27,811 bases of DNA from IMG/VR virus record IMGVR_UViG_3300032242_000516, positions 1-27,811 of that record. One strand, 5' to 3'. Position 1 is the first letter of the stretch; every line of letters begins with the position of its first letter. Of the stretch, positions 21,266 to 26,975 are shown one piece after another. The notes under the pieces are model-generated. The model was not told where the DNA came from and made no database searches. It saw only the letters and a list, made by a program, of their open reading frames with translations. The position numbers and the translations under genes are program-made. The DNA is from a virus.

Positions 21266-21541
21266 ATGGAATTTGAGATGACTATTAACTTTGGTTTCGG
21301 TGAGAGCGTTGAAATTTCTACCGATTCTTTTTGGAAGCTGGCAATGTTGAGCGAGTTTGTTCGATTTGTGGATGAACTAGAGGAAGAAGAAGACGAGCAA
21401 GACGACGAGCAAGAAGAAGAGTACGAGTTTGACGAAGAAGGCGTTGCGTACTGGTTTGACGAAGAGAATGAAGTTTGGTACTTCTACGACGAAGAGTCTG
21501 ACGATTGGTATGAGTGCGAAGAAGAAGAATGCGTTGAGTAA
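21266..21541 (+). CDS. Extremely acidic 91-residue protein (possible DNA mimic)
   Basis: Of 91 residues, 39 are Asp or Glu and only two are Lys or Arg. The N-terminal 35 residues look like an ordered sheet and helix (MTINFGFGESVEIS, then FWKLAMLSEFVRFVDEL). From about residue 36 it is a run of acidic residues interrupted by regularly placed aromatics: AYWFDEENEVWYFYDEESDDWYE. This spacing of Trp/Tyr with acid pairs resembles a repeat of about ten residues (W63, W71, W81). The protein ends in ECEEEECVE. Such charge is known in phage DNA mimics such as Ocr, but there is no sequence relation that I recognise. AGGAG lies seven bases before the ATG, a strong site, and the gene has its own leader hairpin and terminator, suggesting high separate expression. 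A chaperone or metal-binding role is an alternative. Confidence 0.8.
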   Translation: MEFEMTINFGFGESVEISTDSFWKLAMLSEFVRFVDELEEEEDEQDDEQEEEYEFDEEGVAYWFDEENEVWYFYDEESDDWYECEEEECVE

Positions 21542-23104: not shown

Positions 23105-23254
23105 CTATTCGTTCAAACCGGCAGATTGTTGAACCTGGGGTGTTGCTTGCTCTTGTACTTTCTCAATCAGTCCTTTGACTTGTTCGTATGGGAACTTAGA
23201 CAAGGCAGACAGGATTGAGTTAACTTCTTCAACCGAAAATACTAGTGTAATCAT
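23105..23254 (-). CDS. Small conserved phage protein, 49 residues
   Basis: The protein reads MITLVFSVEEVNSILSALSKFPYE, then VKGLIEKVQEQATPQVQQS. The pattern of a strand, EVN.IL.AL...PYE, and an amphipathic helix ending QA.PQV is common to many short phage proteins of unknown function. The ATG at 23254 has AAAGGA about 10 bases upstream; the longer frame to 23344 lies inside the preceding gene and is rejected. It overlaps that gene by 26 bases. A regulatory or protein-binding role is possible, without evidence. Confidence 0.7.
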   Translation of the reverse strand: MITLVFSVEEVNSILSALSKFPYEQVKGLIEKVQEQATPQVQQSAGLNE

Positions 23255-23417
23255 ATTCAATAATTCCTTTAAAGTCAGGGGAGGGTTTGCGCTGTTTTGC
23301 TTCCGTTTGGAACCAATCATTGCTCGTTTTGAGAAGCACTTCACCGGTAGTAGATACCCAGCAAGTAGGCGTCTCGGTTAGCACTTCTCCAGTTTTTGGG
23401 TTAGTTAGTGTGTTCAT
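23229..23417 (-). CDS. Unrecognised 62-residue protein
   Basis: I do not recognise this protein. It carries two short similar segments, TGEVLTETPTCW and TGEVLLKTSNDWF, which suggest a small beta hairpin repeat, followed by a polar stretch and a C-terminus EYDYTSIFG. There is one cysteine, no membrane helix and no metal site. It lies one base after the stop of the SSB-like gene and overlaps the next by 26 bases. Confidence 0.6.
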   Translation of the reverse strand: MNTLTNPKTGEVLTETPTCWVSTTGEVLLKTSNDWFQTEAKQRKPSPDFKGIIEYDYTSIFG

Positions 23418-23418
23418 A

Positions 23419-23673
23419 CTAAAAAGGCAAATCCGAATCGTCTATCTTTGTTTTACGGGTTGGTGCAGAACTTTGACGGGGGGAGTCCTGCTTTTCTTTA
23501 ACAGAAAGAGAGAAGAACTTTGTACCGTCTTTCTTAGATTCTTTGATCCAAGCATTTAACCAGTACTCTGTACCCTCTACGTTGATAGACCCGTTGTAGT
23601 CAGGATGCCGGTCTTCTTCTTTTTTCGTGTTCTTAAAAAGTGAACCCCTGTTTGTATTGTCATATTCAGCCAT
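23419..23673 (-). CDS. Small OB-fold-like / SSB-tailed recombination-associated protein, 84 residues
   Basis: The protein opens MAEYDNTNRGSLFKNTKK and continues with DYNGSINVEGTEYWLNAWIKESKKDGTKFFSLSVKEK, a five-strand-like pattern seen in small phage proteins next to annealing proteins. The C-terminus is a disordered linker ending in IDDSDLPF, closely like the acidic tip of bacterial single-stranded DNA-binding proteins (DDDIPF), which recruits repair and replication partners. Two features of the sequence, the compact beta core and that tip, suggest a reduced SSB-like protein or a partner of the host SSB network. The ATG overlaps the Sak3 stop by eight bases. DNA binding has not been shown by anything in the sequence; this is inference. 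Confidence 0.7.
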   Translation of the reverse strand: MAEYDNTNRGSLFKNTKKEEDRHPDYNGSINVEGTEYWLNAWIKESKKDGTKFFSLSVKEKQDSPRQSSAPTRKTKIDDSDLPF

Positions 23674-24241
23674 TATTTACCTCATCAAGTTTAGATTTGA
23701 ACGCTTTGATAGCAGAGCGCACTTTACTGTCAATCTTGAGTGCTTCCCACACTGCAAGCCTAACTTCGTTGTCAGAGATGGATTCCCATTCTCCGTACAT
23801 TCCTGCCAGATCACCCTTGGCGTGTAAACCTTTGATGGCCTCCACAACCTGGTCGATCAATCCTGTATCCAATTGCGGAAGATCGTCTCCGGCGTATATA
23901 TATAGACCAAGTCCATGCAAAGATAGACCTTTGGTCATACAACGCATGATGGCTGTATTTACTGCGAAAGCATCAGGGTGCTGGATAGCCTTGTTGCGGT
24001 GATCCATGACCGGCAATTGGCACGTTATAGGCTTGTTAAACAGGGTTACTGTTACCCAAACCATGTAAGTGCCGTTGATGTCAATCCAGCACTTGTCGCC
24101 GAACATTTGTACTTGGAAGTGAGCAGCAGGATCGGCCTTGAGTGCCTCTGCCCATGCCCATGCCCAAGACAGATATGTAAGATTACCTTTCTTCTCCGTG
24201 TGATCGTTTACGTTGAGCTTGAGTAATGTATTAACGTCCAT
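23666..24241 (-). CDS. Single-strand annealing protein, Sak3/DUF1071 type
   Basis: This 191-residue protein probably anneals complementary single strands in phage recombination and repair. The DUF1071 (Sak3) pattern is clear: NLTYLSWAWAWAEALKADPAA near the N-terminus, TYMVWVTVTLFNKPITCQLPVMDH in the core, NKAIQHPDAFAVNTAIMRCM, and KGLSLHGLGLYIYAGDDLP. Established knowledge groups this family with Rad52/Erf-like annealing proteins. The C-terminal 60 residues form a variable helical domain. It lies upstream of the SSB-tailed protein with an eight-base overlap and follows the zinc protein with an 11-base overlap. No nuclease partner gene such as an exonuclease is visible in the window, so DNA-end processing may use host enzymes or RusA-dependent routes. 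Confidence 0.85.
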   Translation of the reverse strand: MDVNTLLKLNVNDHTEKKGNLTYLSWAWAWAEALKADPAAHFQVQMFGDKCWIDINGTYMVWVTVTLFNKPITCQLPVMDHRNKAIQHPDAFAVNTAIMRCMTKGLSLHGLGLYIYAGDDLPQLDTGLIDQVVEAIKGLHAKGDLAGMYGEWESISDNEVRLAVWEALKIDSKVRSAIKAFKSKLDEVNNG

Positions 24242-24964: not shown

Positions 24965-25166
24965 TAAGCAATTCCTCTTCATCCACTTCACGCATATAGG
25001 TTCTGACTCTTCGTTCAAATCCTTGTCCGTAGTGGCGTTCAATGTCCCTGATTCGTTTCATTAGCCAGAGTGCTGCTTCTTTCTTTCCTACCTTTTCCAC
25101 AGTAGCGTAGTAAGACGGTACAAGCACTCGAGCTTCTGCTTTTTCTAAGATTTCCCTGTCACTCAT
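24957..25166 (-). CDS. Unrecognised 69-residue helical protein
   Basis: This is a charged, helical protein beginning MSDREILEKAEARVLVPSYYATV with a central KKEAALWLMKRIRDIERHYG and an acidic end (REVDEEELLND). The arrangement resembles small phage proteins found next to RusA, of unknown function. The ATG at 25166 overlaps the stop of the PAPS-reductase-like gene by one base (TAATG). Its own stop overlaps RusA. Its charge pattern would suit a small nucleic-acid- or protein-binding factor; no motif identifies it. Confidence 0.6.
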   Translation of the reverse strand: MSDREILEKAEARVLVPSYYATVEKVGKKEAALWLMKRIRDIERHYGQGFERRVRTYMREVDEEELLND

Positions 25167-26014
25167 TAATCGCCACAAAAGCAAGAAATGCCTTCTTCGT
25201 TTGCGTCAAACATATCGGTTTGTTCTTTTGAAAATTTCAACATTTGTGCATAAGTAGGCCGGTCAATTGCAAAAAATTGTCCATCACCTTCGCATCTTTC
25301 CTGGGCTTTTTGTTCGTGATTTATCCACCAAGTAGCTCTTTCTGGTCTTTCTGTTATCAAACTAAGAATTTGACTTTTTGGTTTTAAGTAACAAAGATCA
25401 CAATTTCCGTGCATTGTTTTACCATTGATATTTGGTAAATTTAAATCAAAATCTTGGCTTTTCCAAAAATTACCTACATCTTTTGCTGAAATTCCAAATG
25501 GTACAAGTGGCATAGAAACAGTTTCATGTTTTCCATCTGGATGAACATTAGATCGAAACTTTGCAACTCTTCTTGGTTCGTCAGCACGAATTCCCAAAAA
25601 TGAATCCCATTCAGTCCAACCAATATGTTTCAAATGACGATGCATTGTTCTTGTTTTTAATTCACTTGAACAATATCGAGAACGTCCATTAGGAAGTGAA
25701 GGATTTCTTTGATTTATCACGCGATCAAATGGCTCTCCTTTTCTACTTGCTGTTTCAAAACTTACAACTTCCGCAAAAGGATTTCTATCCAAAACCATGT
25801 ATTCAAGCCAAACAATGTTTACATCCCATTTTTCTGCGCAATCTTTAACAAATTTCAAAGTTTCTTCTTCTTCTTTTCCAGTATTGCAAAAACAAACTTT
25901 TGCTTCTTTCGGAAGACCGTTGTTTTCTTGTAATGTTCTCCAAAGCATATAGGCGCTTGTACGTCCACCGCTAAACGAAATGCACGTTGGTTCGGTAATT
26001 TTGAATGGATTCAT
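25166..26014 (-). CDS. PAPS-reductase-like PP-loop enzyme, 282 residues
   Basis: The PP-loop signature ISFSGGRTSAYM (from residue 12) places this in the ATP-pyrophosphatase / PAPS-reductase superfamily. Further motifs are CFCNTGKEEEETL, YCSSELKTRTMHRHL, and GIRADEPRRVAKF, as in the phosphoadenosine phosphosulfate reductase-like proteins of phages and in DndC-type enzymes. A CDLC pair (C205, C208) and a terminal CFC pair (C278, C280) could hold a metal or iron-sulfur cluster. No DndB, D or E and no modification partner is visible. The DNA is clearly more AT-rich than the helicase beside it, suggesting separate acquisition. The start ATG 26014 has a weak GAG site; ATG 26026 would overlap the helicase stop by eight bases. 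The substrate (nucleotide, tRNA or DNA) is unknown. Confidence 0.8.
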   Translation of the reverse strand: MNPFKITEPTCISFSGGRTSAYMLWRTLQENNGLPKEAKVCFCNTGKEEEETLKFVKDCAEKWDVNIVWLEYMVLDRNPFAEVVSFETASRKGEPFDRVINQRNPSLPNGRSRYCSSELKTRTMHRHLKHIGWTEWDSFLGIRADEPRRVAKFRSNVHPDGKHETVSMPLVPFGISAKDVGNFWKSQDFDLNLPNINGKTMHGNCDLCYLKPKSQILSLITERPERATWWINHEQKAQERCEGDGQFFAIDRPTYAQMLKFSKEQTDMFDANEEGISCFCGD

Positions 26015-26018
26015 GGTT

Positions 26019-26975
26019 TCACTCATAGACAAAAACAGGATCAAGGGGCTGTCCAATGAACTGCCCTGAGTCCCTATGCAACCACAGCGAGATAGCTGGT
26101 TCACCGTCACCACTGCCTTCGTAATGCCGTTGTTTACAGCACTTCAGGATTGAGTCAAACTCAGCAGCTTTAGTGCCAAATTTTCCGTTGTTTCTGACAT
26201 CATCTTCTTTGGCCTTGTTTCGGAACACTGTAAAGACATTGTCTACCTGGTCAGAGATTGAACCACTGCCCTTCAAGTCGTATTTGTCAGGAATGACATT
26301 CTCGTTAGCTGGTTTGCGTACATGGTGGATCAAGTGGATATGGACGTTGTGGTCTTTTGCAATTGAGAACAATTCCGCTACCAACATCTTCTGACCGGTC
26401 ATATCCTCTTCCGATCCAACAACCTTCATGAGTGAGTCAATGAAAATGTGGTTGATCTTCAACTCTTTGGCGCAGTACCTTGTCATACCAATTACGGTTT
26501 CAACGTTTGTTGTACCGGTCTGATCGTAAATCCACAGGTTCTTAGACCAAGCACCAAACTTGTCCAACAAGAGGTCTAGGACTTCGTATCCTTCATCGTT
26601 CTGGTACTCAGGGGTGAAGGGGTTGGTTCCTATGTACATCCGAGACATCAGGCGTATGGTCTGTGCAGGCTTCATCTCGAAGCTTGCAATAGCGACCTTT
26701 TCTTTCTGTTTTAACAGGTGCATTGCAATCTGGGCAGTAACTTGAGACTTTCCATGTCCGTTCATCCCTGCCCAGACTGTTACTTCACCTGGTCGAAAGT
26801 AGAAAGAATCGTTTGCTTTTTCCCAAGGCATCCAAACCTTACGCTCTTTGCTCGAATCCCGCATCTGCTTTTTGATGGCAGGAATGTAAACAGCAGCACT
26901 CTTTACGTTGGTTTGGTTGTCTGTTTCCTTCAGGTATTGGGTGAAATCAATACTGTCGTCCAGGTAATTAGCCAT
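26019..26975 (-). CDS. DnaB-like replicative helicase (RecA-fold ATPase), 318 residues
   Basis: The Walker A motif GMNGHGKS (70-77), Walker B HIFID (176-180), and helicase motifs HLIHHVRKP (214-222) and KGSGSISDQVDNVF (235-248) are all present, which match the C-terminal motor of DnaB/T7 gp4-type hexameric helicases. The 60-residue N-terminus is too short to be a DnaB N-terminal domain and has no primase zinc motif, so this is a motor-only protein that probably depends on the DUF1376-type protein upstream or on a host primase. It overlaps the upstream gene by eight bases. Classification as helicase is strong; a RecA-like ATPase of other use, for example a recombinase, is the alternative. Confidence 0.85.
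   Translation of the reverse strand: MANYLDDSIDFTQYLKETDNQTNVKSAAVYIPAIKKQMRDSSKERKVWMPWEKANDSFYFRPGEVTVWAGMNGHGKSQVTAQIAMHLLKQKEKVAIASFEMKPAQTIRLMSRMYIGTNPFTPEYQNDEGYEVLDLLLDKFGAWSKNLWIYDQTGTTNVETVIGMTRYCAKELKINHIFIDSLMKVVGSEEDMTGQKMLVAELFSIAKDHNVHIHLIHHVRKPANENVIPDKYDLKGSGSISDQVDNVFTVFRNKAKEDDVRNNGKFGTKAAEFDSILKCCKQRHYEGSGDGEPAISLWLHRDSGQFIGQPLDPVFVYE

Follow-up and report, generated by a model that had tools for sequence, protein, structure and literature searches.

In phage HK620, the six C-terminal residues of the phage SSB (tip NDYPPF) are required both for the binding of the annealing protein Sak4 to SSB-coated DNA and for the stimulation of annealing (PMC5928155). For single-strand annealing proteins of the RecT type, host tropism reportedly depends on the seven C-terminal residues of the host's SSB (PMC10711431). 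Pairs of sak3 and ssb genes are prevalent in Firmicutes phages (PMC8093625), and in lactococcal phage p2 an Orf34-type SSB lies beside Sak3. An OB fold is present in this protein, Orf34p2, whose C-terminal part is unlike that of E. coli SSB (PMC3208561).

Here, we analysed a 27,811-base virus record (the window), which is probably a fragment, since its close relatives lie in contigs of ~41 kb. An initial annotation had singled out an 84-residue protein ending in IDDSDLPF, whose gene overlaps that of a Sak3 annealing protein by eight bases, and both observations hold. The ORF (23419-23673, minus strand) starts with ATG and its product ends in KTKIDDSDLPF, while the protein encoded upstream scores 135.4 bits against PF06378 (cut-off 22.3), which identifies it as a member of DUF1071, that is, Sak3 (PMC8093625). 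The features of the locus are as follows.

23419..23673, minus strand: coding sequence of the SSB-like protein, stop codon included (PHROG 7364, E 2e-18; PHROG 18154, E 3e-15)
23494..23649, minus strand: predicted beta-rich core, residues 9-60 (AlphaFold2 with two alignments; column counts)
23446..23493, minus strand: variable, low-confidence linker, residues 61-76 (pLDDT ~50; length variation)
23422..23445, minus strand: acidic SSB-type C-terminal tip IDDSDLPF, residues 77-84 (kept in 159/173 relatives; alignment of relatives' tails with that of E. coli SSB)
23666..24241, minus strand: Sak3/DUF1071 single-strand annealing protein, 191 aa, directly upstream (PF06378, E 1.5e-39; phrog_659, E 4.7e-43)
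23666..23673, minus strand: 8-nt overlap of sak3 and the SSB-like gene, ATGGCTGA (sequence)
23680..23683, minus strand: GAGG, Shine-Dalgarno-like, 6 nt before the SSB-like ATG and within sak3 (sequence)

The 8-nt overlap, together with the GAGG six bases before the ATG, suggests that translation of the SSB-like gene is probably coupled to that of sak3, which agrees with the co-translation proposed earlier, and an identical overlap recurs in loci L001-L005, L008, L011, L012 and others. Further upstream on the same strand, Pfam and PHROG scans identified RusA, a PAPS-reductase-like protein, a DnaB-like helicase and a primosomal/O-like protein; sak3 and the SSB-like gene thus sit in a replication-recombination module. 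Read at its longest, the PAPS-reductase-like ORF (25166-26113, minus strand) shares 95 nt with the DnaB-like helicase gene, and its real start is therefore probably downstream. On the other side, a 62-aa ORF (23229-23417, minus strand) begins one base past the SSB-like stop codon and is probably part of the same operon; a search for its family gave no match. Elsewhere in the window, a 91-aa ORF (21266-21541, plus strand) encodes an extremely acidic protein with long E/D runs and repeated W/Y-F-D-E motifs, possibly of the DNA-mimic type.

We favour, with a probability of about two in three, the reading that the 84-residue protein belongs to the PHROG 7364/18154 family and acts as a minimal SSB-like protein of the phage, combining an ssDNA-binding core with a tip that docks partners, be it Sak3, host factors or both. 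The beta core of ~50 residues would bind single strands arising in phage replication or recombination, probably as an oligomer, and a flexible linker would present the C-terminal acid-acid-hydrophobic-Pro-Phe peptide for docking. Because sak3 is coupled to this gene and relatives follow Erf, Sak3 or exonuclease genes, the annealing protein is probably the first partner of the tip. The tip would recruit Sak3 to the coated single strands, perhaps along with host SSB partners, and the same peptide could also engage host proteins whose usual target is the tail of the host SSB.

Comparison with the described systems shows both shared and distinct features. As in HK620, a phage SSB-like gene adjoins that of an annealing protein, and the HK620 counterpart likewise has an acidic Pro-Phe tail, needed there by the annealing protein. 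However, the HK620 SSB has a monomer mass of 21.3 kDa and is a distant SSB homologue, whereas the window protein has 84 residues and no SSB-profile match, and Sak4 and Sak3 belong to different superfamilies. The window shares with phage p2 the sak3-ssb gene pair. With E. coli SSB (PF00436), the window protein shares a disordered linker followed by a tip of the same chemistry (D/E-D-I/L-P-F), and in enterobacterial family members the tails are identical, but the window core has four predicted strands, lacks a match to that profile and gave no OB-fold match. The same combination of core and acidic tip occurs in the PHROG 7364/18154 proteins of phages VP2, phiVC8, VpV262 (ORF24), PMBT28 and 4HA13; the window protein differs from them in being shorter than many members and in having Sak3 as its neighbour instead of PolA, and VP2 differs in apparently carrying two tandem cores.

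IMG/VR and genome contigs yielded 173 distinct relatives, of which 159 finish in P[FW] and 168 carry at least two acidic residues just before the C-terminal end; the linker that separates core from tip is variable in both length and sequence. In the other ORFs of the same loci, a P[FW] ending occurs in 21 of 4,144, with an acidic tip in 11; of these 11, seven are plasmid relatives or members of the family that had stayed in the set and one (L280) matches the SSB tail, which brings the background to ~0.1% (roughly 4 of ~4,100 unrelated ORFs). The occurrence of the tip is therefore far beyond chance. The relatives at loci L082-L147 were retrieved by an N-terminal pattern only, so that their tips were not selected for, and those among them that do not end in PF finish in DDFF, DLDF or DIPFN. 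In the window protein itself, residue 80 within the tip is Ser rather than an acidic residue.

Tails in phages of enterobacteria and other gammaproteobacteria have endings such as NEPPMDFDDDIPF, and the enterobacterial members end in (N)EPPMDFDDDIPF, which aligned to the E. coli SSB tail only. In phmmer comparisons, the 4HA13 and PMBT28 tails align to this tail (1eqq residues 136-178) and to no other part of SSB. The SSB-type acidic tip proposed in the initial annotation is thus borne out, being both conserved in homologues and matched to E. coli SSB in the enterobacterial ones; at the level of sequence, tip conservation, the neighbouring genes and these identical tails lend support to the protein acting as a minimal SSB or as a mimic of one. 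A match of the window protein to phrog_378 (SSB), with E 0.066 over residues 44-84, covers largely the linker and tail, and we take it as weak tail similarity only, not as SSB membership. Two further observations concern the tip. In one subgroup (L089, L090, L091, L097, L101-L104), it reads DDLDDFF, with no P-F, and may reflect a different partner; several of the upstream genes there are close Sak3 relatives. In VpV262, the SSB-like gene is closely preceded by an 82-aa ORF (L154:2217-2465) that lacks annotation and ends in DNDIPFDDDIPF, a doubled SSB-type tip.

The core was predicted to be rich in beta structure, as had been expected, and to span residues 9-60. AlphaFold2 models built from alignments of 32 and 51 sequences contain the same four strands (9-14, 26-32, 35-45 and 52-60), with pLDDT in the 80s for the core and ~50 for the linker in both. 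Column counts show that G28, G34 and W42 are invariant, that Y4, Y37, W38, W42 and F53 are conserved aromatics, and that position 44 (K44) is K/R in 90% of the sequences; the aromatics and K44 could serve binding. The net charge of the core is near zero.

The further expectation of an OB fold found no support, as the core matches neither an SSB nor a gp2.5 profile and neither of the two four-strand models has a significant match in the PDB. PF00436 did not match the 84-residue protein at E<=1, was not among the families listed for 32 relatives, and gave no match in five annotated relatives or in the window record; an NCBIfam profile scan of the protein gave no match, and no gp2.5-type family appeared in Pfam or PHROG scans of the protein or among the families listed for its relatives. 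Foldseek searches of the PDB with both models returned no significant match, and in BFVD the matches at E 0.01 or better were only relatives (including one phage protein named DUF736) and unnamed proteins. When the sequences of solved structures were searched with the window protein and its profile, only chance matches emerged (one at E 2.7, and one at E 0.27 to a Shiga B subunit over 36 residues). The best VIA-align scores (Z 4.3-4.5) were for Borrelia Pur-alpha, tied with unrelated propeller blades, and PC4 reached Z ~3, all of them weak matches. The alignment to Pur-alpha 3nm7 has Z 4.5 and rmsd 3.7 over 50 aligned residues, a weak match that propeller blades equal, and for Coxiella SSB the values were E 0.96 and TM 0.29. 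No SSB was present among the VIA-align rows, a result that does not exclude an OB fold. Without identifying the fold, these weak matches suggest an antiparallel meander of four strands. The PC4/PUR-like fold is a dimeric four-stranded antiparallel sheet with a helix; Pur-alpha and PC4 are binders of single strands that lack an OB fold, and a non-OB ssDNA-binding core is therefore a reasonable guess from the models.

A second resemblance of the core is to DUF736 (PF05284), a family of plasmid and ICE proteins. The similarity is at the profile-profile level: hhalign aligned residues 12-63 with E 1.1e-5 and a probability of 82% when a seven-sequence DUF736 set was used, and 19% with a smaller alignment. 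That set was drawn from plasmid records, since a class-level search for DUF736 had given a single match; the domain occurs on >1,100 plasmid records. The window protein itself scores 13.8 bits against PF05284, below the Pfam gathering cut-off of 22.1, and the DUF736 proteins examined differ from it in lacking the acidic tip. Proteins of ~165 aa on large plasmids of Caballeronia and Paraburkholderia (L320:3770-4267, L323:2785-3285), annotated as DUF736 or hypothetical, do carry the core with an SSB-type tip, LEDEDIPF or EDDEIPF, and the VP2 homologue (L149:4001-4474) has, by eye, two tandem cores followed by one PPMDFDDDIPF tail. Tentatively, and against rather than with the odds, the family could represent an SSB without an OB fold, made of a four-stranded PC4/Pur-like or DUF736-like ssDNA-binding core and a docking tail of the bacterial SSB type. 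In that case, the family would have gained its tail independently of the OB domain, and DUF736 may be a related domain that likewise binds nucleic acids.

The 84-residue protein is not new in kind, as it adds to a widespread, already named phage family. In hmmscan searches it falls into PHROGs 7364 and 18154, both named 'single strand DNA binding protein', as do all 32 members of the first alignment (A1), and tblastn matched 138 phage records, many of them annotated as ssDNA-binding. The supposition that small proteins in this position are commonly left as hypothetical therefore does not apply here. The SSB-like tail, too, had already been noticed in a relative, since the GenBank note for VpV262 ORF24 reads 'similar to single strand DNA binding protein C-terminus'. 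Only three chromosomal relatives turned up in the genome-contig scan, so that within the collections searched the family is largely viral. We found no ssDNA-binding assay on any family member in the literature searched, and the name may rest mainly on tail similarity. The point of interest is the core as a possible non-OB ssDNA binder.

The genes around the family members point to DNA transactions. For 61 relatives and the window (62 in total), we scanned the nearest upstream ORF (>=90 aa, within 150 nt) and found ERF in 30, SSAP_Sak (Sak3) in seven and YqaJ exonuclease in seven by Pfam, with PHROGs in agreement. The same pairing is present in published phage records, with Sak in C72C1 and with Erf in Microcystis phage Mae-JY35, and helicase genes also adjoin the SSB-like gene in other phages. 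In another branch (VP2, PMBT28, JeffCo and VpV262), the gene lies beside or near that of a family-A DNA polymerase (PolA). The 20 family-bearing records searched (the window and 19 others), several of which may be incomplete genomes, yielded no PF00436 SSB, while a control search with the same profile matched 10 of 14 well-known genomes; given this possible incompleteness, the absence supports an SSB role but is not conclusive.

The main rival to a working SSB, which we regard as unlikely, is that the core does not bind ssDNA and that the protein only mimics the tail, competing for or redirecting host proteins that dock on the host SSB. Its appeal lies in the confinement of the SSB likeness to the tail, which in enterobacterial members reproduces that of E. 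coli SSB almost letter for letter, and in the near-zero net charge of the core. Nevertheless, the core is conserved as well, with its three invariant residues, it is duplicated in VP2 and on plasmids, and the strong linkage to annealing, exonuclease and polymerase genes, together with the lack of another SSB in the records searched, fits a working SSB better. Less probable still is an adaptor whose core binds the annealing protein and whose tip binds host factors, bridging Sak3 or Erf to the host fork without coating DNA: coupling to sak3 and adjacency to erf would suit it, but the family also occurs beside PolA with no adjacent annealing gene, which makes a dedicated Sak3/Erf-binding core unlikely. 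That the C-terminal peptide is mainly a protease-recognition tag is hardly credible, for although a Streptococcus mutans study (PMC5143411) is said to report a ClpXP degradation motif and to mention DDDLPF, the tip agrees with the classical SSB docking tail both in its sequence and in where it lies, and the neighbouring genes indicate DNA transactions.

If the favoured SSB-like reading is correct, 84 residues are enough to serve a phage annealing protein as its SSB, and the family concerned occurs across many phages. Annealing proteins used in recombineering often fail in new hosts because the host SSB tail is not read, and a matched pair of a small SSB and Sak3 or Erf could then be portable. 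The question also bears on the correctness of a widely copied 'SSB' label and on whether SSB docking tails occur on non-OB cores.

In the PolA branch, the SSB-like gene of PMBT28 (L150:3001-4492) and PSA28 (L333:1-2968) lies between genes for PolA and a PurZ-like adenylosuccinate synthetase, an arrangement expected of phages with 2-aminoadenine (Z) genomes. Phage phiVC8, a known Z phage, also carries the SSB-like gene.
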